DNA of 23,128 bases, taken from positions 1 to 23,128 of the IMG/VR virus record IMGVR_UViG_3300009526_001064; one strand, written 5' to 3'. The stretch is from a virus. The notes under the pieces are model-generated. The model worked only from the letters and a program-made list of their open reading frames with translations. It had not been told where the DNA came from and did not search any database. Position numbers and translations under genes: made by a program. This document shows positions 2,287 through 23,128 of the stretch, one piece after another (position 1 is the stretch's first letter; each line of letters starts with the position of its first letter).

Positions 2287-2918
2287 GTTCCCTACAAAAA
2301 CATCACATAGTTCCCATATACAAGTGTAAAGAACTAGGACTGACAACCAGTTATAAGATTGGTTGGAAAGAGTTTTATTTCAAAGAAAACATGGTAGAAG
2401 TATCAATACTAGATCATGCTTACATACATAATGGATATGGAAATAGTGACCTAGAACCATTGCTAAAAGTATGTAATCCACCACAATGGGTAATAGACAT
2501 GATACCACTAGGGGATAAGAGAGATCGGCTAGCCGCAGTAATCCTTGCAAAAGGAGAGATGGATGGAATAGATATATCTGGTGAGAATAATCCAAGGTGG
2601 AAGGGTGGTGTATGGGCTAATGATCCAGTGGCATGGAGAAAGGCATATAGAAAAACACCAGAGCAAAAAGCACAACAGAAGGTATATAAGCAAACACCAA
2701 AGTATAAAGCACAACAGAAAGCATATAATGATGCACGTAGAGAAACACCAGAATATAAAGCACGACAGAAAGCATATATGAGGGTTTATGATAAGAAACG
2801 TAGAGAAACACCAGAGTATAAAGCACGAAAGAAAGCATATCAAAAGGCATATAAGCTTAGAAAGAAGTTAGAGAAAGAAAAAGGGACAGGTGATTTGTCG
2901 GCGTTTTATGAAAAATAA
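2283..2918 (+). CDS. HNH/NUMOD-type endonuclease with basic C-terminal repeats
   Basis: A 211-residue protein. The N-terminus carries a double-histidine KHHIVPIYK (H7, H8) with further histidines at 45 and 49 in ILDHAYIH, an arrangement found in phage HNH endonucleases where a D-H-A-x-x-H helix completes the metal site. Residues 99-109 (SGENNPRWKGG) match the NUMOD3 DNA-binding motif of homing endonucleases. The C-terminal half (124-186) is four copies of a 12-residue basic unit of the form xTPEYKARQKAY, followed by a K/R-rich tail. This is probably a free-standing homing endonuclease that nicks or cuts related phage genomes. Its last codons (from 2856) share sequence with the end of the methyltransferase gene at 4447-4494, so the 3' end was involved in the rearrangement described under the direct repeats. 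Starts with ATGA overlap on the methyltransferase stop. Confidence 0.72.
   Translation: MSSLQKHHIVPIYKCKELGLTTSYKIGWKEFYFKENMVEVSILDHAYIHNGYGNSDLEPLLKVCNPPQWVIDMIPLGDKRDRLAAVILAKGEMDGIDISGENNPRWKGGVWANDPVAWRKAYRKTPEQKAQQKVYKQTPKYKAQQKAYNDARRETPEYKARQKAYMRVYDKKRRETPEYKARKKAYQKAYKLRKKLEKEKGTGDLSAFYEK
2652..2840 (+). repeat. Degenerate tandem repeat inside the HNH gene
   Basis: Four diverged copies of a 36-base unit coding for a 12-residue Lys/Arg-rich peptide (x-T-P-E-Y-K-A-x-Q-K-A-Y), with spacers of 1, 5 and 9 residues between copies. At DNA level the motif 'ccagartataaagcac' recurs. The predicted product is a basic, probably helical, DNA-contacting arm. Confidence 0.8.
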
Positions 2919-2953
2919 ATATCCCATATATGTGGTCTCAAAGAATCGTTGGG
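2856..2953 (+). repeat. Direct repeat, left copy (bracketing the R-M module)
   Basis: This block matches 4447-4536 in the same orientation. The first 18 bases (2856-2873) are identical to 4447-4464, the middle diverges in sequence and length, and the last 46 bases (2908-2953) match 4491-4536 with one mismatch. The 46-base part is a copy of the first codons of the glycosyltransferase gene at 4491. It places the nuclease-methyltransferase pair between two copies of the same site. Confidence 0.92.
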
Positions 2954-2970
2954 GGTTGACATCAAGTTAA
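2908..2970 (+). pseudogene. Orphan 5' fragment of the glycosyltransferase gene
   Basis: Twenty codons from ATG at 2908: the first 15 encode the same residues (MKNKYPIYVVSKNRW) as the start of the glycosyltransferase at 4491; the frame then leaves homology and stops at 2968-2970, in the -35/spacer region of the promoter at 2956. It overlaps the last codons of the HNH gene in another frame. It looks like a vestige left when the module to its right was inserted. Confidence 0.85.
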
Positions 2971-2984
2971 ACTTATGATATCTT
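2956..2984 (+). promoter_or_regulatory. Sigma70-like (early-type) promoter of the R-M module
   Basis: A perfect -35 box TTGACA (2956-2961), 17-base spacer and TATCTT (2979-2984). The 14 bases after the -10 (ATAAGAATAACAAG, 2985-2998) are identical to those after the promoter at 17679, and all three promoters of this type in the window (2956, 17679, 18721) begin TTGACATnA and lead to an A(A/T)TCGT just before the start region. It lies 34 bases before the nuclease start. Confidence 0.82.
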
Positions 2985-3017
2985 ATAAGAATAACAAGAC
3001 AGAAAGCGAATCGTATT

Positions 3018-3533
3018 ATGAATAGTATCGAAAAAATTATTACTCCACTGTTGGAAAAACTTGCTGGAAGAGTTGAAGACAAATGGTATGGATCTAAATA
3101 TGAGGTAGTTAAAGCGGCGGCAATGACACCTAAAGGTGATTTTGGAGAAGAGGTTACTGCTACATTGATAAAAGAACTCATTGGTATGAGTGCTAAAATC
3201 ATCAACGGTGGTAAAGGAGAATTTGATATCATCACTAATTCTGGTATTAAATTTGAGAACAAACTTGCTACTGAAGATACTAGTGGTGGGTTTCAGTTCA
3301 ATGGAATAAAAAAAGATGTAGTATATGATTATGTATTTGGTCTTGGTGTTTCTCCAAATGATTTATGGTTTGGTATTTGGAGTAAAAAAGAGACAGAAAA
3401 TTTAACCGTTTCTATGACCAAAGATGGTTCTGATAGCTTTAAACTATCTGCAAGAAAAGCTTCTGGTGCTAAATATCCTTTACTTCCTTTAACACCAGAA
3501 AACTTTAAAAGAGAGGTATCAAAAATTGTCTAG
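3018..3533 (+). CDS. PD-(D/E)XK-type nuclease, probable restriction endonuclease
   Basis: A 171-residue protein, unrecognised by name. It shows an N-terminal GDFGEE (40-45) on a helix, then D70 in GEFDII, then E80-N-K82 in KFENK; this D-x(9)-E-x-K spacing is the PD-(D/E)XK nuclease signature. The gene directly precedes and overlaps by 8 bases an adenine methyltransferase, the classic arrangement of a type II restriction-modification pair, which is the main reason to call it a restriction enzyme. It is transcribed from its own promoter. By hand count all 21 Lys codons are AAA, against 17 AAG to 7 AAA in the glycosyltransferase gene downstream, a sign that the module has a different history. 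It could also be a replication/repair nuclease or a homing-type nuclease. Confidence 0.68.
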   Translation: MNSIEKIITPLLEKLAGRVEDKWYGSKYEVVKAAAMTPKGDFGEEVTATLIKELIGMSAKIINGGKGEFDIITNSGIKFENKLATEDTSGGFQFNGIKKDVVYDYVFGLGVSPNDLWFGIWSKKETENLTVSMTKDGSDSFKLSARKASGAKYPLLPLTPENFKREVSKIV

Positions 3534-4494
3534 TGCATGGGATGGATTGGTAAATAACAAACAAAAAACTGAGTTACCACATTATGCAATAAATAAAAGT
3601 TTACCCGCTGATAGTTATTTCACTTCATCGAAAACGGCTAAAAGATGCATTGATATTGCAAATTTGGTAATACCAGATAATACTTTTACCTATATCGAAC
3701 CATCTGCTGGCGAAGGATCGTTCTATAACCTATTACCAAATAGTTCTCGTATAGGTATAGAATTGTATGATCGTAAAAGACCAGAATATATACAAGCAGA
3801 TTACTTAACATGGTATCCCAAAGAAAATAATAATTATGTTGTTATAGGTAATCCACCTTTTGGTGTTAGGGGCGCAACGGCTCTCGCATTTATTAATCGT
3901 TCTCTATTATTTGCAGACTATGTAGCATTTATTCTACCCATGTCGTTTCATAGTAATGGTAAAGGTAGTAACATGAAACGAGTCACAAATGGTCATTTGA
4001 TTCATTCAGAAGTCCTTTATGGCGAATCATTCTTTTCCCCAGACAATAATAAAGAAATTAAAGTCAACACGCTATTTCAAGTATGGAAAAAGGGAGAAGG
4101 GGAAGGGATATTCCCAGATTATGATATATCAGAGTATGCCGATATATATACTGTCTGTTCGTCACCAAATAGGTTATGCGGATTAGAAAAAATAGGGACA
4201 TATGATTTTTATGTTTCATCATCATATTTTGGCGAAACTCTTCCAACAGTATATGATTTTACAGATGTAAAATATGGTTCTGGTTATGGTGTTATCTTAA
4301 AAAAGAGTAAAAAAGATATTATTAATAAATTAAAAGATATGGAATGGAATAAGTATGCTTCATTAGCAACTAACAGTTGCAAACATATTCGTAAATATTC
4401 TATAGAGAAATGTTTACATGATCTTGGATATGGTAGCATTAGAATACTTAGAAAGAAGTTAGAGCGACAAGGTAATCTGAATGCGTTTTTATGA
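3526..4494 (+). CDS. DNA N6-adenine methyltransferase (type II R-M-like)
   Basis: A 322-residue protein beginning at TTG 3526 (no ATG or GTG in frame nearby; GAGAGG about 9 bases upstream). Motif I is EPSAGEG (58-64), the catalytic motif is NPPF (109-112) and is followed by a hydrophobic strand, YVAFILPMSF. The remaining roughly 190 residues probably hold target recognition. With the preceding nuclease this reads as a type II restriction-modification pair. Lys codons are almost all AAA until the last codons: 'cttagaaagaagttagag' at 4447-4464, with two AAG codons, is shared with the end of the HNH gene. So the C-terminal tail (LRKKLE...NLNAF) is probably native phage sequence joined to the imported body. 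The stop overlaps the glycosyltransferase start (ATGA). Confidence 0.8.
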   Translation: MSSAWDGLVNNKQKTELPHYAINKSLPADSYFTSSKTAKRCIDIANLVIPDNTFTYIEPSAGEGSFYNLLPNSSRIGIELYDRKRPEYIQADYLTWYPKENNNYVVIGNPPFGVRGATALAFINRSLLFADYVAFILPMSFHSNGKGSNMKRVTNGHLIHSEVLYGESFFSPDNNKEIKVNTLFQVWKKGEGEGIFPDYDISEYADIYTVCSSPNRLCGLEKIGTYDFYVSSSYFGETLPTVYDFTDVKYGSGYGVILKKSKKDIINKLKDMEWNKYASLATNSCKHIRKYSIEKCLHDLGYGSIRILRKKLERQGNLNAFL

Positions 4495-4536
4495 AAAATA
4501 AGTATCCCATATATGTGGTCTCAAAGAATCGTTGGG
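4447..4536 (+). repeat. Direct repeat, right copy (bracketing the R-M module)
   Basis: Counterpart of 2856-2953: 18 identical bases at the left end, a diverged middle, then a 46-base segment with a single mismatch. The right copy lies in functional context, spanning the methyltransferase 3' end and the first codons of the intact glycosyltransferase, so it is the likely original locus. Confidence 0.92.
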
Positions 4537-5396
4537 ATCAATGTAAGACCGCTGAACTTCTTGACAGACTTTCGGTGGACTATCATATTGTGGTTGAGGA
4601 AGATCAACTAGATAAGTATGCTGAATACCATGACAGAGACAAACTCCTAACCCTTGATGGAAGTTACTTAGACTATTACGATACGTGTGATGATCTGGGT
4701 CAGAGTAAGAGTAAGGGTCCGGGAGCGGCTAGAAACTTTGCGTGGGAGCATTCTACTACAACGTATGGTGCCAAGTGTCATTGGGTTATGGATGATAACA
4801 TCTACGACTTTCACAGACTAAACAATAATGTAAAGGCCGCTGTAAGAACTATGGCATGGTTCAGAGCCATGGAAGACTTCTGTGACAGATACTCCAACGT
4901 AGCAATCGCTGGTCCTAACTATAGTAAGTTCTGTAAGGCAACCGATAAGGTTCCACCACTTATCTTCAATACAAGAATATACTCATGTCTCCTAATCCGT
5001 AATGATATTCCTTACAGATGGCGTGGACGATATAATGAAGATACCGATTTATCTTTAAGAGCATTGAAAGATGGTTGGTGTACAATACAGTTCAATGCAT
5101 TCCTAGCAGACAAGGGAACAACCCAACGAACTATTGGTGGTAATGATAAAGAGTTTTATGCTGAAGAAGGCACACTACCTAAGTCAGAGATGCTAAAAGA
5201 AATGCACCCTGATGTTACTGAGGTTGTTTGGAAGTTTAATAGATGGCACCACCATGTGGACTATAGACCATTTAAGAAGAACTATTTAAAAGAAGTTGAT
5301 AATGTCTTGTATGCTAAAGATCCAGAGTATGGAATGAAGCTTATAGATATTGGCAGAGAGAACATTGGTAGACGTGCTATTGATGATAGAATATAG
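4491..5396 (+). CDS. TET-associated-type glycosyltransferase (phage DNA base glycosylation family)
   Basis: A 301-residue GT-A-like glycosyltransferase. Visible landmarks are the N-terminal strand YPIYVVSKNRW (5-15), G-A-A-R81-N-F-A-W with the following helix, HWVMDDN (97-103) as the DxD-like nucleotide-sugar/metal site, GPNY (141-144), RIYSCLLI (162-169), and YNEDTDLSLR (181-190), with R-W-H-H-H near 247-254. This set matches what I know as the TET/JBP-associated glycosyltransferase family of phages, proposed and in some cases shown to glycosylate hydroxymethylated pyrimidines in phage DNA. Donor sugar and base cannot be read from sequence. No clear TET/JBP oxygenase is in the window, although several other 2OG-Fe(II) oxygenases are. 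The start of this gene is duplicated at 2908. Followed after 11 bases by a phosphoribosyltransferase. Confidence 0.78.
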   Translation: MKNKYPIYVVSKNRWDQCKTAELLDRLSVDYHIVVEEDQLDKYAEYHDRDKLLTLDGSYLDYYDTCDDLGQSKSKGPGAARNFAWEHSTTTYGAKCHWVMDDNIYDFHRLNNNVKAAVRTMAWFRAMEDFCDRYSNVAIAGPNYSKFCKATDKVPPLIFNTRIYSCLLIRNDIPYRWRGRYNEDTDLSLRALKDGWCTIQFNAFLADKGTTQRTIGGNDKEFYAEEGTLPKSEMLKEMHPDVTEVVWKFNRWHHHVDYRPFKKNYLKEVDNVLYAKDPEYGMKLIDIGRENIGRRAIDDRI

Positions 5397-5407
5397 GGAA
5401 AACAATA

Positions 5408-5857
5408 ATGCCGTATGATCCAGATGCTAGTTTATTTCAAATGGGAGATTTTACTAGCCACGCAGGGCTACCACTCAAATGGAAACTAGAGTGTGATGCT
5501 ATTACAGACGAAGAGTGGCGGTGCCTAGCAAAGATGATTATGGATTATCAGGATCATCCATTTAGTAAGGCAGTCGGCATACCACGTGGTGGAGTTAAAC
5601 TAGCAGAGGCACTGAACGAATATGCTTCTGGTGATGATACCGACTTCCCATTAATATGTGATGATGTGTTCACTACTGGAACTAGTATGATAGATTTCAT
5701 TAAAGAAAAATTTCCTACTTTTACTCAAGGTATGGGTTATAGGTGGGTAGTGTTTGCACGTAAACCTAGTAACGTTCAACCTTTTTATACACGTGCTTTA
5801 TTCACGATGCCTGAGATTACGGCAGAAAGATATAAGATAGTTGATAAGAAGAAGTAG
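5408..5857 (+). CDS. Phosphoribosyltransferase-fold protein
   Basis: A 149-residue type I phosphoribosyltransferase-like protein with a strong ribosome binding site (AGGGAAAA) before ATG. The PRPP-binding loop is ICDDVFTTGTSM (83-94) and an upstream GIPRGG (57-62) matches the pyrophosphate-loop region of the family. The N-terminal part (FQMGDFTSHAGLPLKWKLEC) is typical of a phage group of such proteins. The substrate is unknown: orotate, a nucleobase or a hypermodification intermediate are possible. Lying between a probable DNA glycosyltransferase and KDO synthase, it may serve nucleotide salvage or base modification, but this is only context. Confidence 0.8.
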   Translation: MPYDPDASLFQMGDFTSHAGLPLKWKLECDAITDEEWRCLAKMIMDYQDHPFSKAVGIPRGGVKLAEALNEYASGDDTDFPLICDDVFTTGTSMIDFIKEKFPTFTQGMGYRWVVFARKPSNVQPFYTRALFTMPEITAERYKIVDKKK

Positions 5858-5858
5858 C

Positions 5859-6053
5859 TTGACTAAACTGAAAAAACGTGTTACACTATTTAAAGGACAT
5901 TACCTTCAGTTAAGAAAAGAAGGTGTTAGATTATACGGCAGAGACCAATCGCACTTAGCATACTATTCAAAGTATAGTAAGTTTAACTGCTTTTGGTGGG
6001 CCGTTTCAAACTCTCGTACTCACGAGTTAGATGGAAGATATAGACAATGGTAA
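5859..6053 (+). CDS. Small basic protein, unknown function
   Basis: A 64-residue protein if started at TTG 5859 just after the preceding stop (an in-frame TTG at 5841 would overlap that gene). It is rich in Lys/Arg and aromatic residues (KFNCFWWAVSNSR in the middle). It ends seven bases inside the KDO-8-phosphate synthase gene, and the tight packing supports it being real. No family recognised; it might be a small nucleic-acid-binding protein. The uncommon TTG start lowers confidence. Confidence 0.5.
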   Translation: MTKLKKRVTLFKGHYLQLRKEGVRLYGRDQSHLAYYSKYSKFNCFWWAVSNSRTHELDGRYRQW

Positions 6054-6820
6054 GGATTATTGCTGGCCCATGCCAACACGAATCTCTTGAACAATCTTTA
6101 GAGATAGCAAGACACTGTGCTGATGTGTGCTACAAGTATAGCGTAGACTATGTATTCAAGGCTAGTTATGATAAGGCTAACAGAACTCATATTTCTGGAG
6201 AGCGTGGATGGGGTATTTGTGATACTCTTATAGATTTCTTTACTATGAAAAAAGAAATGCATGATCTTAAGATACTCACTGATGTTCATGACAAACTAGA
6301 CATAGATCAAATCAGTGATGAGAAGTGTGTTGATATCTTACAGATACCAGCATTTCTAAGTAGACAGACAGATCTTATTCAAAGAGCGTGTGAGACTGAT
6401 ATGATTGTCAATATTAAGAAAGGTCAGTTCATGGCTCCTTGGGATATTCAAGGTATTCTTAGTAAGACAGAGGGAGCCAAAGAAGTTTGGATAACTGAGA
6501 GGGGTACAAGTTTTGGGTATGGACGTTTGGTTAATGATTTCACTGGGATGCTTGATAATCTCAGTGCGCTTGGTGATAGATTTGTATACGATGTTACGCA
6601 CTCAGTCCAACTCCCAAGCTCAGAAGGAACCTCATCTGGGGGGAACCGTTCTTATGTTCCTTCTCTTTGCAGGGCTGGCTCTGCTCTTGGGGTTCAAAGC
6701 TTTTTTTTAGAAGTGCATCCAGACCCTGACAACGCACCATCAGATGGACCGAATATGTTAAAACTAGAAGATTTTGAAGGAGTCGTAGATGACATTATCA
6801 GCTATTCTTATACCCGCTAG
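6047..6820 (+). CDS. kdsA: 3-deoxy-8-phosphooctulonate (KDO-8-phosphate) synthase
   Basis: Condenses phosphoenolpyruvate with D-arabinose 5-phosphate to KDO-8-phosphate, the first committed step of KDO synthesis for the inner core of lipopolysaccharide. The 257-residue TIM-barrel protein has the family motifs IAGPC (5-9), FKASYDKANR (37-46), TDVH (78-81), QIPAFLSRQTDL (99-110), VNIKKGQF (121-128), TERG, DVTHSVQ (182-188) and HPDPDNAPSDGPN (224-236). Cys9, His185, Glu222 and Asp233 are all present, which are the ligands of the metal-dependent class of the enzyme; the non-metal class (E. coli) has Asn in place of this Cys. Overlaps the preceding small gene and, by 32 bases, the CMP-KDO synthetase gene. 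All signature motifs are intact, so it is likely active. Confidence 0.95.
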   Translation: MVRIIAGPCQHESLEQSLEIARHCADVCYKYSVDYVFKASYDKANRTHISGERGWGICDTLIDFFTMKKEMHDLKILTDVHDKLDIDQISDEKCVDILQIPAFLSRQTDLIQRACETDMIVNIKKGQFMAPWDIQGILSKTEGAKEVWITERGTSFGYGRLVNDFTGMLDNLSALGDRFVYDVTHSVQLPSSEGTSSGGNRSYVPSLCRAGSALGVQSFFLEVHPDPDNAPSDGPNMLKLEDFEGVVDDIISYSYTR

Positions 6821-7472
6821 ATGGGGATCTAAAAGATTTGAAGGTAAACCATTATGTGATTTAGATGGGTTACCTATGATCAGAAGAGTGCATGATATAT
6901 GTGCGGCTTCTAAAATACCTACATTTGTTCTTACAGATGATGTTAGGGTTGCTAATGCAGTCAACGATAAGTGTACAGTTATTATAGATAAAAGAGAGTT
7001 TAACAATGGCACAGAGAGATGTGCTGGGGCAATTCAAACAGACTTCTTAAAGAAGTTTGATACCTTTATTAACGTGCAAGGCGATATGCCTGATGTTACT
7101 GGAAAAATGATAAACGAAATAAATGACATGAGTAGAGGTGTCTATTATAGTGGGGGTGTATCTACACTCTATGCTAAAATGGAAAAGCACTTGCAATCAG
7201 AACCAAATTGTGTTAAGATGGTTCATAACGATACAGAAGCACATTGGTTTGGTAGAGGTATAACCATGGGGTCTCATCACTTAGGTATCTATGGATACTC
7301 TAGAAATATGCTTGAGAAGTATGGGACTGTTCAAGATAAGTATGAAGAGCACGAAGGCTTGGAACAACTTAGATGGATAGCAATGGGCGAGGAGATCTGT
7401 ATTAGAAAGGTGGAGTTCGATGGTATTGAAATCAACACACCAGAAGATGCTGAGTGCTGGAATATAAGGTAG
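6789..7472 (+). CDS. kdsB: CMP-KDO synthetase (3-deoxy-manno-octulosonate cytidylyltransferase)
   Basis: Activates KDO as CMP-KDO for transfer by KDO transferases. The 227-residue protein, somewhat shorter than the usual ~250, has IPARWGSKRFEGKPL (8-22), PMIRRV, the TDD-x-RV strand at about 49-53, GTERC (73-77), FINVQGDMP (92-100) and HHLGIYGYSRNML (163-175), ending with GLEQLRW and INTPEDAE, all characteristic of KdsB. The ATG at 6789 overlaps kdsA by 32 bases, so the pair is translationally linked and probably functions together. Intermediate removal of the 8-phosphate would need KdsC, which is not obvious here; the small HAD protein at 7664 is a candidate or the host enzyme may serve. Confidence 0.92.
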   Translation: MTLSAILIPARWGSKRFEGKPLCDLDGLPMIRRVHDICAASKIPTFVLTDDVRVANAVNDKCTVIIDKREFNNGTERCAGAIQTDFLKKFDTFINVQGDMPDVTGKMINEINDMSRGVYYSGGVSTLYAKMEKHLQSEPNCVKMVHNDTEAHWFGRGITMGSHHLGIYGYSRNMLEKYGTVQDKYEEHEGLEQLRWIAMGEEICIRKVEFDGIEINTPEDAECWNIR

Positions 7473-8005: not shown

Positions 8006-8353
8006 ATGATTGCTGGTAAAGTATGGGGATCTACAGAACTTGTAGAGGCCAATGGAGCATTAGAGTTCCATCGTATTGAAATGAATAAAGGTGGCATTTG
8101 TTCAAAACATCTACATGAGTTTAAGTGGAATGGCTTCTATGTGGAATCTGGACGTATGCTTATTCGTGTATGGCAAAATGATTATGACTTGGTTGATGAA
8201 ACTATACTTGAACTTGGGATGTATACTAAGGTCAAGCCGGGGGTGTATCATCAGTTTGAATGCCTTGAAGATGGTGTAGCGTTTGAGTTATATTGGGCAG
8301 AGTTTAATCATAATGATATTATAAGAGAGACGGTAGGAACCAATGCTGATTAG
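8006..8353 (+). CDS. Cupin-fold protein (sugar isomerase/epimerase-like)
   Basis: A 115-residue single-domain cupin. It starts with KVWGSTELVEANG, similar to the C-terminal cupin of type II mannose-6-phosphate isomerases and GDP-mannose pyrophosphorylase fusions. It has the first cupin motif H-L-H (35-37) ... GFYVESGRMLI and the second PGVYHQFE (77-84), giving plausible metal ligands. The ribosome binding site AGGAAAG precedes ATG. In this sugar-enzyme neighbourhood a sugar-phosphate isomerase role is possible, notably mannose/fructose 6-phosphate given the phosphomannomutase-like gene at 9382. Cupins are functionally diverse, so the activity stays open. Overlaps guaC by 11 bases. Confidence 0.78.
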   Translation: MIAGKVWGSTELVEANGALEFHRIEMNKGGICSKHLHEFKWNGFYVESGRMLIRVWQNDYDLVDETILELGMYTKVKPGVYHQFECLEDGVAFELYWAEFNHNDIIRETVGTNAD

Positions 8354-9389
8354 TGACGATATAAAACTAGACTACTCCGATGTTCTTATTAGACCAAAGA
8401 GGTCTACTTTAAAATCTCGTAAAGAGGTTGATCTATTAAGACCCATGAAGTTTAGAAATAGTGAACGCATATATCAAGGTGTTCCTATCATGGCGGCTAA
8501 TATGGATGGTGTCGGCACGTTTGAAATGGCAGATGCACTTTCTAAATTAGATATCTTCACTTGTCTGGTAAAGACATATAGCGCAGAAGACCTAGCAAAG
8601 TTCTTTAACCAATCTGATATAGAGAATACTATACATCGTCAACAGAATGTTGCCATGTCTATTGGCACATCAGATAGTGATTTAGAAAAGTTTAAAAAGG
8701 TATACAAACTTACTGATGGTATACTTAAATACCTATGCGTAGATGTAGCAAATGGTTACACAGAGATGTTCAGTAACTTTATATACGATTTACGTTCTAA
8801 CTATCCTGATCTAGTTATCATAGCGGGTAATGTTGTGACAGGAGATATGACACAGGAGTTAATCTTAAATGGTGCGGATATTGTTAAATGCGGTATTGGG
8901 CCGGGCAGTGTATGTACGACTCGTATACAAACAGGTGTTGGTTATCCTCAACTCTCAGCGGTTATTGAATGTGCTGATGCTTCTCACGGTCTCTCAGGCC
9001 ATATTATTGCTGATGGAGGTTGTACTACGTCTGGTGACATAGCCAAAGCTTTTGGTGCTGGTTCAGACTTTGTGATGCTTGGCGGTATGTTGGCTGGACA
9101 TGATGAAGGTGGTGGAGAAGTAGTGGACAACAAGATCAGTTTCTATGGTATGAGTTCAGAGACTGCCAACGACAAACACTTTGGTGGACTGAAAGACTAT
9201 AGAGCCTCAGAAGGTAAAGAGGTTAGTTTACCATATAAAGGACAAGTCGGAACTACTATACAAGCCATTCTTGGTGGAATAAGATCAGCTTCTACATATG
9301 TTGGAGCCGCTAAGATAAAAGACTTACCTAAGTGTACTACATTCGTTAGAGTGAACAATACTCACAACAGAGTATACGGAGATGGCTGA
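8343..9389 (+). CDS. guaC: GMP reductase
   Basis: Converts GMP to IMP with NADPH and release of ammonia, moving guanine nucleotides back to the IMP branch point and so toward adenine nucleotides. The 348-residue protein matches E. coli GuaC (347 residues) along its whole length: KLDYSDVLIRPKRSTLKSR near the start, PIMAANMDGVGTF, CVDVANGY, IAGNVVTGDMTQELILNGAD, the catalytic-Cys loop GIGPGSVCTTR, GVGYPQLSAVIECADA, DGGCTTSGDIAKAFGAGSDF, and the C-terminal FYGMSSETA...YRASEGKEV plus GGIRSASTYVGAAKIKDL. No CBS insert, as expected for GMP reductase rather than IMP dehydrogenase. All motifs look intact. It overlaps both neighbours, so it is part of the same operon as the sugar enzymes. Confidence 0.95.
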   Translation: MLISDDIKLDYSDVLIRPKRSTLKSRKEVDLLRPMKFRNSERIYQGVPIMAANMDGVGTFEMADALSKLDIFTCLVKTYSAEDLAKFFNQSDIENTIHRQQNVAMSIGTSDSDLEKFKKVYKLTDGILKYLCVDVANGYTEMFSNFIYDLRSNYPDLVIIAGNVVTGDMTQELILNGADIVKCGIGPGSVCTTRIQTGVGYPQLSAVIECADASHGLSGHIIADGGCTTSGDIAKAFGAGSDFVMLGGMLAGHDEGGGEVVDNKISFYGMSSETANDKHFGGLKDYRASEGKEVSLPYKGQVGTTIQAILGGIRSASTYVGAAKIKDLPKCTTFVRVNNTHNRVYGDG

Positions 9390-19650: not shown

Positions 19651-19781
19651 AACTCTTAAAAGAGAATAGAAAATATATTCTTTATGGAGATGATGGTATG
19701 GTAATAATTATAACCTCTCAAAAATCTGTGATATATAGTATTCAGAATACTTTAAAAAAAATAAGAAGAAAAACAAAATGA
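19647..19781 (+). CDS. Small hypothetical protein
   Basis: A 44-residue basic frame that starts with GTG overlapping the DUF1289 stop (GTGA), with TAGGA just upstream, and ends overlapping the next ATG. It contains a hydrophobic strand (GMVIIITSQKSVIYSI) and a K/R tail. Continuous overlaps at both ends are the main evidence; composition is AT-rich and no family is recognised. Confidence 0.5.
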   Translation: MKLLKENRKYILYGDDGMVIIITSQKSVIYSIQNTLKKIRRKTK

Positions 19782-20023
19782 GTGTAGAATGGGATGCGGA
19801 AAAACACCGTAGAGCACACTGGTTATATTGGATAACCAAAGGTCACCTAGATACTACAGAAGAACAAATACTATCATCACACGATAGTTATTTAAGAAGA
19901 GCATGGGGCAATATTGAAAACTATGTCCATGAAGAAGGCTTCAAGGAAGCCTACGCCAAAAAAGAAACCTCAAACGGCAGAGTCGACCCTGCCTTAACAC
20001 CCTCGAAAAGGAATATAAATTGA
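19778..20023 (+). CDS. Small hypothetical protein
   Basis: An 81-residue hydrophilic protein starting in an ATGA overlap with the previous gene and ending 4 bases into the BMP gene. The N-terminal half (EKHRRAHWLYWITKGHLDTT) is aromatic and probably helical. No family recognised. It may simply be part of the translational relay that leads to the TTG start of the binding-protein gene. Confidence 0.62.
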   Translation: MSVEWDAEKHRRAHWLYWITKGHLDTTEEQILSSHDSYLRRAWGNIENYVHEEGFKEAYAKKETSNGRVDPALTPSKRNIN

Positions 20024-21090
20024 AACTATTTACAACAGTGCTAACTGCACTATTACTGATGGTAGGTCTTACTACTTCATCAGTAGCAAAGGATAAAGTT
20101 AAAGTTGGCTTTATATACGTTGGACCCACAGGAGATCATGGCTGGACATACCGTCACGACATTGGACGCCAGCAAGTTGAAGAAGCTTATGGAGACAGAG
20201 TTGAAACAGTCTTTGTTGAGAGCGTACCAGAAGGTCCAGACTCAGAACGTGTAATGACTGCTATGGCTCTTAAAGGTGCAGACATTATCTTTGCAACCTC
20301 TTTTGGCTACATGGACTCAGTTCTATCAGTGGCTAAAAAGTTTCCTAACGTAAAGTTTGAACACGCTACTGGATACAAGCAGTCTGAGAATGCGGCGAAC
20401 TATGGATTGAAGTTATATCAATCACGCCACGTTCAAGGTATCATTGCTGGGTTGATGACAAAAACAAATAAGATTTGTTACGTTGCTTCCTTCCCAATCC
20501 CAGAAGTTATGCGTGAAATTAACACATATTACTTGGGCGCAAAGAAGATGAACCCTGATGTAGAGTTAAGTATCGTATGGGTTTATACTTGGTATGATCC
20601 AGCCAAAGAAGGTGATGCCGCTAAATCTATGATGGAACAAGGTTGTGATGTTGTAGCACAGCATACAGACTCACCAGCACCACTGATTGCCGCTGAAGAG
20701 GCTGGTAAGGTTGGTTTTGGTCAGGCATCAGATCAACTTAAGTTTGCTCCTAAAGCACAGTTGACCGCTACTATTGATAATTGGGGTCCATACTATATTG
20801 ACAAAGTTGGTCAAGTATTAGATGGCACATGGAAGACAGGTGATTACTTTGGTCACATGAATACGGGTGCTGTTCAAATGGCACCGTTTACTAATATGCC
20901 AGCAAATGTAGCATTAGAAGCACAGATAGTAAAGGATGCTATTTCGGCTGGAACGTTACATGGATTTACGGGACCAATCAATAAGCAAGATGGTTCAGTA
21001 TTCTTAGAAGTTGGTGAAGTCGCAACACGTATGCAACTTGACACAATGGACTTCTATGTCGAAGGCATTACGGCTACACCACCGTCATGA
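20020..21090 (+). CDS. BMP-family (PnrA/Med-like) periplasmic substrate-binding protein
   Basis: A 356-residue ABC-transporter solute-binding protein of the basic membrane protein family, whose characterised members bind purine nucleosides or related bases. It starts at TTG 20020 (AAAAGGAA 6 bases upstream). A signal peptide (hydrophobic 4-17, cleavage likely after SVA at 21-23) without a lipobox Cys predicts a soluble periplasmic protein. The mature start KVKVGFIYVGPTGDHGWTYRHD, VFVESVPEGPDSERVMTAMA, GADIIFATSFGYM, HATGYKQSENAANY, and the hinge region CDVVAQHTDSPAPLIAAEE are family features. No permease or ATPase gene is nearby, so it would work with the host transporter. The stop overlaps the dioxygenase start (ATGA). 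Confidence 0.92.
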   Translation: MKLFTTVLTALLLMVGLTTSSVAKDKVKVGFIYVGPTGDHGWTYRHDIGRQQVEEAYGDRVETVFVESVPEGPDSERVMTAMALKGADIIFATSFGYMDSVLSVAKKFPNVKFEHATGYKQSENAANYGLKLYQSRHVQGIIAGLMTKTNKICYVASFPIPEVMREINTYYLGAKKMNPDVELSIVWVYTWYDPAKEGDAAKSMMEQGCDVVAQHTDSPAPLIAAEEAGKVGFGQASDQLKFAPKAQLTATIDNWGPYYIDKVGQVLDGTWKTGDYFGHMNTGAVQMAPFTNMPANVALEAQIVKDAISAGTLHGFTGPINKQDGSVFLEVGEVATRMQLDTMDFYVEGITATPPS

Positions 21091-21962
21091 TACCAGTAAT
21101 CGATTTAAATAAACATCCGTATGATGTTTTAGATCAAGTTCGCAAAGCCTACACAACAGTGGGCTTTGCGGTCTTCACGAACAGTTTAACTTCAAAAGAA
21201 CAGGGCGATATGAATTGCTGGTTCGATGAAATGAAATCGTTCTTTGATTTAGATCTCAATACTAAAATGAAATACCCCTATGAAGGAGATACTAACTTGG
21301 GGTACAGTGTTGTGGGGGATGAGAATGTAGATCCGACTGCACCTAAGGACATGAAAGAAAGTTTTAACTACAACAACACTCGTATGAATGAAAAGTTGTG
21401 GCCCACAGAGTTACCCAAGTTTAAGCAAAGTGCTTTACGAAGCATTGACATTGCTGATAAACTAACATTACGTATCTTAAAAATGTTTGACGATATACTT
21501 GACACTGGCACTACTCTTGTCGATGCTCATATGAAACCATACAACACTACCAGAGTCATTCATTATCCATCAGTTTTTGAATTAGAAGAGGAATTTGAAG
21601 AGCGACAATTAAGAATTGGAGAGCATAGTGACTATGGAACTATCACACTTCTTTGGCAGATTAACGATGTTCCGGGATTACAAGTTCAAGATCTTAAAGG
21701 TGTTTGGCATCCTGTGCCTTATGCTGACAATGGTGTTGTTGTTAATATAGGTGATTTACTACAACGTTGGACCAACGATTATTTTAAAAGCACAAAGCAT
21801 AGAGTGGTGAATAGTCATATGCATCTAAACAGATATTCTATGCCCCACTTTGTAGATCCGACTCCGGGGACGATAGTAAGCAACCTAACAGAAGAAAAGG
21901 CTAAGTATGAACCGATAGAGAGTAAAGAATATTTGATGTGGCGTTTGGCACAGAGTTACTAG
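21087..21962 (+). CDS. Isopenicillin-N-synthase-like 2OG-Fe(II) dioxygenase, copy 1
   Basis: A 291-residue oxygenase of the isopenicillin N synthase/plant-type family, with an N-terminal DIOX_N-like domain (MIPVIDL, YTTVGFAVFTN) and a C-terminal double-stranded beta-helix. Ligands H180-S-D182 and H238, plus R249-Y-S251 for 2-oxoglutarate, are all present, so it should be active. Bacterial relatives act on small molecules, including nucleobase-like compounds in some clusters, but substrate cannot be predicted. The start overlaps the BMP stop, so it is translationally linked to the binding protein. It lacks the ~13-residue C-terminal extension of copy 2. It is closely similar to copy 2 across the catalytic half. 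Confidence 0.93.
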   Translation: MIPVIDLNKHPYDVLDQVRKAYTTVGFAVFTNSLTSKEQGDMNCWFDEMKSFFDLDLNTKMKYPYEGDTNLGYSVVGDENVDPTAPKDMKESFNYNNTRMNEKLWPTELPKFKQSALRSIDIADKLTLRILKMFDDILDTGTTLVDAHMKPYNTTRVIHYPSVFELEEEFEERQLRIGEHSDYGTITLLWQINDVPGLQVQDLKGVWHPVPYADNGVVVNIGDLLQRWTNDYFKSTKHRVVNSHMHLNRYSMPHFVDPTPGTIVSNLTEEKAKYEPIESKEYLMWRLAQSY

Positions 21963-21963
21963 C

Positions 21964-22860
21964 ATGATACCAGTAATAGACTTTAAAGCAAGAGACGCAT
22001 TCGGTCAGATACGCAGAGCCTACACAACAGTGGGCTTTGCGGTCTTTACGAATTGTTTGAGTTCAAACGAACAGAGTGACATGAGTTGCTGGTTTGATGA
22101 AATGAAGTTATTCTTTGACTTAGACCTAGAGACAAAAATGAAATATCCATATGAAGCTGACGAGTTAGGGCCGATGGGTTTTCGAGTAAATAAAGATTCA
22201 ACAGAAAAATTTGACTATAATAATGCTAGAATGGGTAATCATCTTTGGCCTAAAGATCTTCCTAACTTTAAAGCAAGTGCTCTTCAAAGTATAGACATTG
22301 CTGATAAATTGACATTACGTATTTTGGGAATGTTTGACGATATACTTGGCACTGGTAATACTCTTGTCGATGCTCATATAAAATCAAACAACAGTACCAG
22401 AGTTATTCACTACCCATCTATTTTTGATTTCGACATAGAATATCTAGAAGAAAAACAGATGCGTATGGGAGAACATAGTGATTTCGGAACTATCACACTT
22501 CTTTGGCAAGTTAATGACGTTCCGGGGTTACAAGTTCAAGATCTTGGTGGTGCTTGGCATTCAGTTCCTTGTGTTCAAGATAGTGTTGTTGTTAATATTG
22601 GCGATTTACTTCAACGCTGGACTAATGATTATTTTAAAAGCACAAAGCATAGGGTGATAAATAGCCATTTACATTTAAATAGATATTCTATGCCACACTT
22701 TGTAGCTCCAATCCCCGGAACCATAGTAAGCAACCTAATAGAAGCAAAGGATAAATATGAACCAATAGAGGTCAAAGAATTTTTAATGCGGCGTCTTGCC
22801 CAAGGTTTCTATGGGGTAGAAGCGCACAAAATGTGGCAACGATCCCAAGGATTTAATTAA
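21964..22860 (+). CDS. Isopenicillin-N-synthase-like 2OG-Fe(II) dioxygenase, copy 2
   Basis: A 298-residue paralogue of the preceding protein, starting one base after its stop. Metal ligands H171-S-D173 and H229 and the R240-Y-S242 pair are intact. The region after GEHSD, including LQRWTNDYFKSTKHRV, is nearly identical to copy 1, whereas the central loop (about 65-90) is shorter and different, the part that usually shapes the active-site entrance. It carries an extra C-terminal segment with VEAHKMWQRSQ. Two intact copies imply either two related substrates or a dose effect. Confidence 0.93.
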   Translation: MIPVIDFKARDAFGQIRRAYTTVGFAVFTNCLSSNEQSDMSCWFDEMKLFFDLDLETKMKYPYEADELGPMGFRVNKDSTEKFDYNNARMGNHLWPKDLPNFKASALQSIDIADKLTLRILGMFDDILGTGNTLVDAHIKSNNSTRVIHYPSIFDFDIEYLEEKQMRMGEHSDFGTITLLWQVNDVPGLQVQDLGGAWHSVPCVQDSVVVNIGDLLQRWTNDYFKSTKHRVINSHLHLNRYSMPHFVAPIPGTIVSNLIEAKDKYEPIEVKEFLMRRLAQGFYGVEAHKMWQRSQGFN

Positions 22861-22964: not shown

Positions 22965-23128
22965 GGGGCTGAATTGGGAATCGACTGGCAGGGTAGAAAA
23001 GTGGAGAATCCGGGTACGAGCTCCGTTAACGCAAGTAACTAAAGTAAACGCAAACGATAATTTTGCTCCTGTAGACTACGCCCTAGCGGCATAGTTGTAC
23101 GGGGTCCGCCAGTACCTGTCAACAGAAA
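22965..23128 (+). ncRNA. ssrA: tmRNA (transfer-messenger RNA), 5' part
   Basis: Begins with GGGGCTGA, the conserved 5' acceptor-stem strand of tmRNA, followed by a GAATCGAC segment as in the tRNA-like D region. The tag reading frame starts with the resume codon GCA at 23050 and reads ANDNFAPVDYALAA before TAG at 23092-23094; it starts ANDN, like alphaproteobacterial tags, and ends LAA, the degradation signal. GGAG...CTCC around 22998-23032 could form a pseudoknot stem. The 3' acceptor half (T arm, CCA) is not in the window, nor is it upstream, where a circularly permuted gene would have it. The RNA would rescue stalled ribosomes and tag truncated proteins in the infected cell. Confidence 0.93.

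Follow-up and report, generated by a model that had tools for sequence, protein, structure and literature searches.

Cyanophages encode the periplasmic binding protein PstS without a permease of its own, and these proteins are presumed to keep up or boost host uptake (PMC10976474). Binding proteins for purine bases are known from bacteria. AtzT of Pseudomonas sp. ADP prefers purines and retains guanine through purification, with dissociation constants of 0.11 μM for guanine, 2.5 for adenine, 620 for thymine and 1600 for uracil (PMC6834077), and the structure of a Brucella protein of the same BMP family (3s99) has a purine modelled in its site; for neither is a coupling to a 2-oxoglutarate (2OG) dioxygenase known. 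Here we describe a 23,128-nucleotide phage fragment (IMG/VR record IMGVR_UViG_3300009526_001064, positions 1 to 23,128; hereafter, the window) in which the gene for a secreted BMP-family solute-binding protein (BMP) is followed by genes for two IPNS-type 2OG/Fe(II) dioxygenases (OX1 and OX2). BMP and an oxygenase of this kind (OX) form a pair that is likely to be a phage module for purine-base uptake and oxidation/salvage, docking onto an ATP-binding cassette (ABC) importer of the host. As with PstS, this is an auxiliary metabolic gene in a phage genome that has sister proteins in bacteria, and no BMP-type permease or ATPase was noticed among the open reading frames (ORFs) of the window or in most of the other phage loci; the initial annotation, which had the phage supply a host importer with a binding protein, is supported in this respect. 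Unlike PstS, the phage BMP belongs to another fold family and another ligand class, is tied operonically to an oxygenase and, together with it, has moved back into host genomes.

BMP contains a Bmp domain (PF02608; E = 1.2e-48, residues 26-294) behind a signal peptide, as initially annotated; this leader is of the Sec type and lacks a lipobox (MKLFTTVLTALLLMVGLTTSSVA/KDK), and the signal region is present yet variable across the aligned phage BMPs. In a profile search, the best solved relatives were 3s99 (E = 5e-143) and AtzT (E = 4e-117), and Streptococcus pneumoniae PnrA, a nucleoside-binding protein, reached only about 8e-07. The predicted structure (pLDDT 82) yields Z scores of about 43 to AtzT and 3s99 versus 30.8 to PnrA, and the identity is 45% to AtzT and 52% to 3s99 (about 330 residues) versus 15% to PnrA. 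By these measures, BMP falls into the purine-base branch of PF02608 rather than among the PnrA-type proteins; of the ligands first proposed, nucleosides are therefore removed and nucleobases stand. The pockets of BMP and OX were mapped by sequence alignment. In BMP, the AtzT contacts Tyr45, Ser97, Phe98, Glu165, Trp194 and Asn218/Asn220 correspond to W42, S94, F95, E162, W191 and H215/D217, so that the purine-sandwiching aromatic positions and the Glu and Ser contacts are shared with AtzT and 3s99; the His/Asp pair is common to the phage BMP and 3s99, where AtzT has Asn/Asn. All seven phage residues are invariant across 25 phage BMPs, and judging from the alignment, the contact positions are kept or conservatively changed relative to AtzT and 3s99. 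Given these relatives, the ligand of BMP is very probably a purine base. The function of a pyridoxine transporter protein (NCBIfam ABC_BMP_B6) was rejected, at 55 bits versus a cut-off of 400.

The genomic context of the bacterial BMP relatives recovered in a genome scan points to purines as well. An ABC core adjoins the gene in nearly all cases, and xdhA/xdhB together with an ABC core lie beside 49 of the 68 relatives that have 9 kb of upstream sequence. In the phylogenetic tree, the BMP of Rhodobacteraceae SB2 (L155) branches inside the phage clade, where support is modest to good (95, 86). This protein belongs, as the solute-binding component, to an xdhABC-ATPase-permease-permease operon, and therefore, phage-type BMPs probably work with cellular purine importers. 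Such Rhodobacteraceae operons share the BMP family with the phages but comprise a complete importer and a Mo-enzyme and lack a 2OG oxygenase. In SB2, the purine operon is followed by split Rieske genes, distantly similar to those of the methylxanthine demethylases NdmA/NdmB, and a glutathione S-transferase-like gene (L155:11260-13499).

The pairing of BMP with an oxygenase extends far beyond the window. Searches of IMG/VR returned at least 261 stretches with close BMP relatives and 199 with OX1 relatives, of which the best 80 of each were taken, so that the locus sample leans to close relatives. Among the 81 dereplicated BMP loci with at least 900 bases downstream, OX lies directly downstream of BMP in 69, mostly overlapping or at most 4 bases apart, 1-5 genes away in 9, and is missing in 3; five of the 69 had been scored as separated by the script solely through the choice of an upstream start codon. 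This pairing, which bears out the genetic tie first suggested, is far beyond chance, and the unit is widespread: many marine phages carry the two-gene kit. Chance or misbinned host DNA as the origin of the pair was ruled out by the T4-type neighbours (gp41 and UvsX in the window, gp44, ribonucleotide reductase and PhoH in other loci) and by contigs of up to 316 kb. The window itself derives from a T4-like phage, its replicative helicase (gp41) and UvsX being 66% and 72% identical, respectively, to the homologs in the T4-like Phage C48C1. All copies are under purifying selection, with dN/dS of 0.03-0.09 for BMP and 0.06-0.22 for OX among the phage relatives. A search of phage isolates for BMP retrieved only unannotated faecal 'Bacteriophage sp.' fragments with less than 40% identity, which are unconvincing as phage relatives; PHROGs contains no family matching BMP, and no earlier description of a phage BMP or of the BMP-oxygenase pair was found in the open-access literature searched. 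One phage, which also has ribonucleotide reductase and PhoH, encodes, a short way past the pair, another BMP-type protein that has diverged to 26% identity (L065:7999-9006).

Both OX1 and OX2 combine DIOX_N and 2OG-FeII_Oxy (PF03171) domains with the HxD...H and RxS motifs of the IPNS-type dioxygenases. The iron ligands H180, D182 and H238 and the 2OG residues R249 and S251 of OX1 have intact counterparts in OX2, in agreement with the initial annotation. The predicted OX structure is of moderate quality (pLDDT 72.5), and a functional assignment from fold alone was discarded because many subfamilies tie within one Z unit. The best solved relative of OX1 is the fungal thymine-7-hydroxylase (5c3p-5c3s; E = 2e-37, about 30% identity), with which OX1 shares the iron and 2OG sites, most base contacts and a C-terminal Tyr/Arg helix. 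Going by the residue roles reported for that enzyme (PMC4787775), Asn87, Arg190, Tyr217, Phe292, Tyr324 and Arg328 are kept in OX1, and Glu122 and Asn294 are changed, to N94 and D257, respectively, so that the full contact set is absent; in the fungal enzyme, E122A mainly loses activity on 5-hydroxymethyluracil and 5-formyluracil, and N294A is without effect (PMC4787775). The less similar control structures 3oox and 3on7 keep Phe292 and lack Tyr217 and Asn87; because Phe292 is shared with them, only part of the match is specific to thymine-7-hydroxylase. Taken with the presence of ThyX in the window, this relationship might suggest that OX is a true thymine-7-hydroxylase and that thymine or a methylated pyrimidine is what the module takes up and oxidises, either for pyrimidine salvage or for a modified DNA base. 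We regard this as improbable given that, in the BMP branch, purines are bound far more tightly than thymine or uracil, that BMP relatives reside in xanthine dehydrogenase operons, that the linked phosphoribosyltransferases are of the adenine and xanthine types, and that Glu122 and Asn294 are changed. Unlike the fungal enzyme, OX1 is a phage/alphaproteobacterial protein linked to a purine-type binding protein. Oxidation by OX of a purine imported by BMP is, in our view, reasonably probable, if less firmly supported than the ligand class.

The initial annotation described an operon of BMP and two dioxygenases; this holds for the window but not for the general unit, which consists of one BMP and one oxygenase. 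No counterpart of OX2 was found in the 153 other phage loci examined, and OX2 accordingly stands outside this unit. Relative to OX1, the loop NLGYSVVGDENVDPTAPK is shortened in OX2, and predicted base-contact positions are changed (N70 to P, N94 to D, Y183 to F and D257 to A). The nearest relatives (L002 and L082; BMP dS 0.10) carry a single OX, the first 150 bases of which are 98-99% like OX2 and the central and 3' parts 91-98% like OX1. Because this single gene is a mosaic, recombination was involved in the origin of OX1 and OX2; its derivation, in L002, by simple recombinational deletion between the two was rejected because the mosaic runs the wrong way (OX2-like at the 5' end, OX1-like at the 3' end). 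OX2 probably arose recently by tandem duplication and has shifted in specificity.

Genes for nucleotide salvage recur around the phage pairs. A family of small proteins with a phosphoribosyl pyrophosphate (PRPP) motif, which is represented in the window, is encoded immediately after OX in 14 further phage loci, and adenine phosphoribosyltransferase (APRT) is so in 8 loci. For the window protein, the assignment as a phosphoribosyltransferase is by motif only, since Pfam gave no match and the PDB none that was credible. The nucleotide-supply setting proposed initially is strengthened by these genes, alongside GMP reductase and ThyX in the window, and we lean slightly towards a product that serves salvage rather than catabolism, again less firmly than for the ligand class. 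In 13 loci, FolE (GTP cyclohydrolase I) is encoded just upstream of BMP, and in others, an amidinotransferase-like gene is found, which would fit a scheme where a modified base or cofactor is made or trimmed by OX, with BMP only providing purine to a pathway that starts from GTP (7-deazaguanine or pterin). Such a role is very unlikely: most loci lack FolE, whereas OX follows BMP in nearly all, and the copies transferred to hosts keep BMP and OX with no intact FolE or amidinotransferase gene adjoining. A stand-alone class II aminoacyl-tRNA-synthetase-like gene (AsnA/AsxRS-type) lies beside BMP-OX in L121 (3571-4413) and in 31 dereplicated phage loci.

The genes associated with xanthine-sensing (NMT1-motif) riboswitches include IPNS-type dioxygenases, NMT1-type binding proteins, Rieske enzymes and guanine deaminases, and purine substrates have been predicted for this set (Yu and Breaker, PMC7373994). 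Members of this set also occur in the phage neighbourhoods, namely, NMT1-type ABC transporters and IPNS-type oxygenases, with Rieske genes in 12 loci. An NMT1-type transporter adjoins the pair in L035 and L073; complete importers (NMT1-type binding protein, ATPase and permease) are encoded in L035:7120-9534, L073:7182-9610, L109:2583-4991 and L317:472-2879, sometimes beside BMP-OX and sometimes in place of BMP. In L317, the importer is followed (2880-6621) by a second IPNS-type oxygenase, an ASST-like protein, an adenylosuccinate synthetase close to Escherichia coli PurA, and a Vut_1 transporter of the vitamin or queuosine-precursor type. No host relatives of the phage NMT1-type binding protein were detected at E<=1e-50 in 142 genomes.

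A profile search identified the phage-type oxygenase in 5 of 58 SAR116-family genomes (E about 1e-167), and the next matches drop to 1e-39; bacterial IPNS-type paralogues at that level have no purine or pyrimidine gene context. In all five genomes, the oxygenase stands with BMP, and upstream of BMP lie a Type B leader (see below) and the remnant of an amidinotransferase gene. This gene precedes BMP in phages L035 and L056, and in several of the SAR116 copies, stop codons and frameshifts interrupt it. Both BMP and OX have kept their full length, and dN/dS among the five is 0.03-0.20 for BMP and 0.24-0.34 for OX; the SAR116 BMPs form one clade inside the larger phage-type clade. Thus, the pair has moved from phage to host in the SAR116 family and has come under purifying selection there. 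Each SAR116 genome encodes a single BMP-type ATPase, whose gene lies in another operon that includes a BMP gene of its own; with no dedicated permease nearby, the acquired BMP would have to share that importer. In two genomes, a xanthine phosphoribosyltransferase gene adjoins the pair.

We envisage that, upon infection of an alphaproteobacterial host, the phage would make extra BMP, which would be secreted via the Sec pathway, capture a purine base or a close analogue in the periplasm and deliver it to the BMP-type ABC importer of the host. In the cytoplasm, the dioxygenase would oxidise the purine taken up; the likeliest reactions are a ring hydroxylation such as that of hypoxanthine to xanthine, or the oxidative removal of an N-methyl group. 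Phosphoribosyltransferases would convert the resulting base into nucleotides for phage DNA. Several observations weigh against this scheme. The substrate of the nearest solved relative of OX is a pyrimidine, and some of the residue matches to this relative are common to the subfamily as a whole. In L109, OX follows an NMT1-type ABC transporter without BMP, and therefore, the OX substrate need not be the BMP ligand. This oxygenase was found within 10 kb in 0 of 79 other bacterial BMP loci, which limits the known cases of the pairing to phages and to host copies that derive from them. Finally, hydantoinase-like genes adjoin the SAR116 pair in two other genomes, which would suit catabolism; combined with the degradative nature of the host xdh operons, this raises the alternative that the same import and oxidation of purines supply nitrogen or one-carbon units via a urate/allantoin-type breakdown. 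We find this unlikely because uricase or allantoinase was not noticed in the annotated phage neighbourhoods and phosphoribosyltransferases recur beside OX.

The layout of the window is given in Table 1. All three ORFs lie where initially annotated, with the TTG start of BMP, an ATGA overlap at the BMP/OX1 junction and OX2 starting one base past the end of OX1.

Table 1. Positions of the BMP-oxygenase genes and associated features in the window
Feature	Position	Strand	Remarks
BMP	20020-21090	+	TTG start, 356 aa
Signal peptide of BMP	20020-20088	+	predicted cleavage after SVA (sequence inspection)
OX1, IPNS-type 2OG/Fe(II) dioxygenase, general BMP partner	21087-21962	+	ATG start, 291 aa
OX2, probable diverged tandem copy of OX1	21964-22860	+	ATG start, 298 aa
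81-aa ORF, function unassigned	19778-20023	+	4-nt overlap with BMP start
Type A leader	19976-20012	+	hairpin GGCAG (19976-19980)/CTGCC (19989-19993), then AACACCCTCGAAAAGGA; overlaps 3' end of 81-aa ORF
IMP dehydrogenase/GMP reductase domain protein, probable GuaC	8343-9389	+	Pfam PF00478, 2e-71
Small protein with PRPP-type motif ICDDVFTTGTS, putative phosphoribosyltransferase	5408-5857	+	motif only

The 81-aa ORF had no match in Pfam and PHROG searches but resembles cluster 45, found again close to the pair in other phages (11 loci). Elsewhere in the window, a DAHP/KDO8P-synthase-family gene and a cytidylyltransferase gene (6047-7472; probable kdsA-kdsB) represent a sugar-acid pathway on the phage. 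Downstream of OX2, the window end cuts a phage transfer-messenger RNA (tmRNA) of the alphaproteobacterial (permuted) type (22965-23128), with the apparent tag ANDNFAPVDYALAA; the match to Rfam alpha_tmRNA (E = 2.8e-09) is below the gathering score. In 32 phage loci, a tmRNA-like 3' end is located at most 200 bases ahead of BMP.

Two types of conserved, structured leaders precede the binding-protein genes, both covarying hairpins situated some tens of bases ahead of the start codon. Type A, the type in the window, occurs in 11 of 88 dereplicated loci and ends in the conserved tail AACACCCTCGAAAAGGA, in which CCT/AGG can, according to folding, pair into a small hairpin that covers the ribosome-binding site (AAGGA, 20008-20012, ahead of the BMP TTG). 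Among 13 distinct copies, three stem pairs show double changes, and the covariation score was reached by 0 of 500 shuffles; wherever the GG..-AGT hairpin occurs in an IMG/VR copy, a BMP gene follows. Type B occurs in 21 of the 88 loci; its middle stem pair is GC, AU, CG or UA, and 98% of cells are paired versus 34-53% when slid. Screening the whole of IMG/VR for the core of Type B returned 39 stretches and, with the other loci analysed, 42 unique sites. Of these, 34 precede BMP and 6 precede NMT1-type binding-protein genes; one more precedes a Clp-protease-like gene that lies downstream of BMP, and at the last site no ORF could be read. The genes under the xanthine riboswitches are cellular, with no BMP reported among them (PMC7373994). 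The phage leaders scanned gave no match to an Rfam family: there was no match at the gathering score in the window and no fitting match at E<=5-10 in three leader stretches. The strict Type B pattern had no match in 385 + 198 alphaproteobacterial genomes, but close SAR116 variants escape this pattern, and absence from bacteria is therefore not established. The leaders are likely to regulate gene expression; ligand sensing is speculative, and because the signal-peptide starts of BMP and NMT1-type genes are alike (MKLFK), exchange of a leader-plus-signal cassette is an alternative. Our tentative suggestion is that the phage binding-protein genes are controlled by two undescribed regulatory RNAs, through metabolite sensing (possibly of an oxidised purine) or translation timing. 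If so, the phage would turn on purine import when the host pool is low. One leader type has been carried into host chromosomes along with the pair, and the leaders are a new candidate class of phage regulatory RNA.

Phage control of host nutrient uptake has been documented mainly for phosphate, through PstS; here, purine bases appear to be targeted, and their capture would be coupled to oxidation, linking viral infection to dissolved organic nitrogen. The pair also offers a candidate substrate class for a dioxygenase family that lacks one, and its transfer to, and retention in, host genomes suggests that it is useful to cells outside infection.

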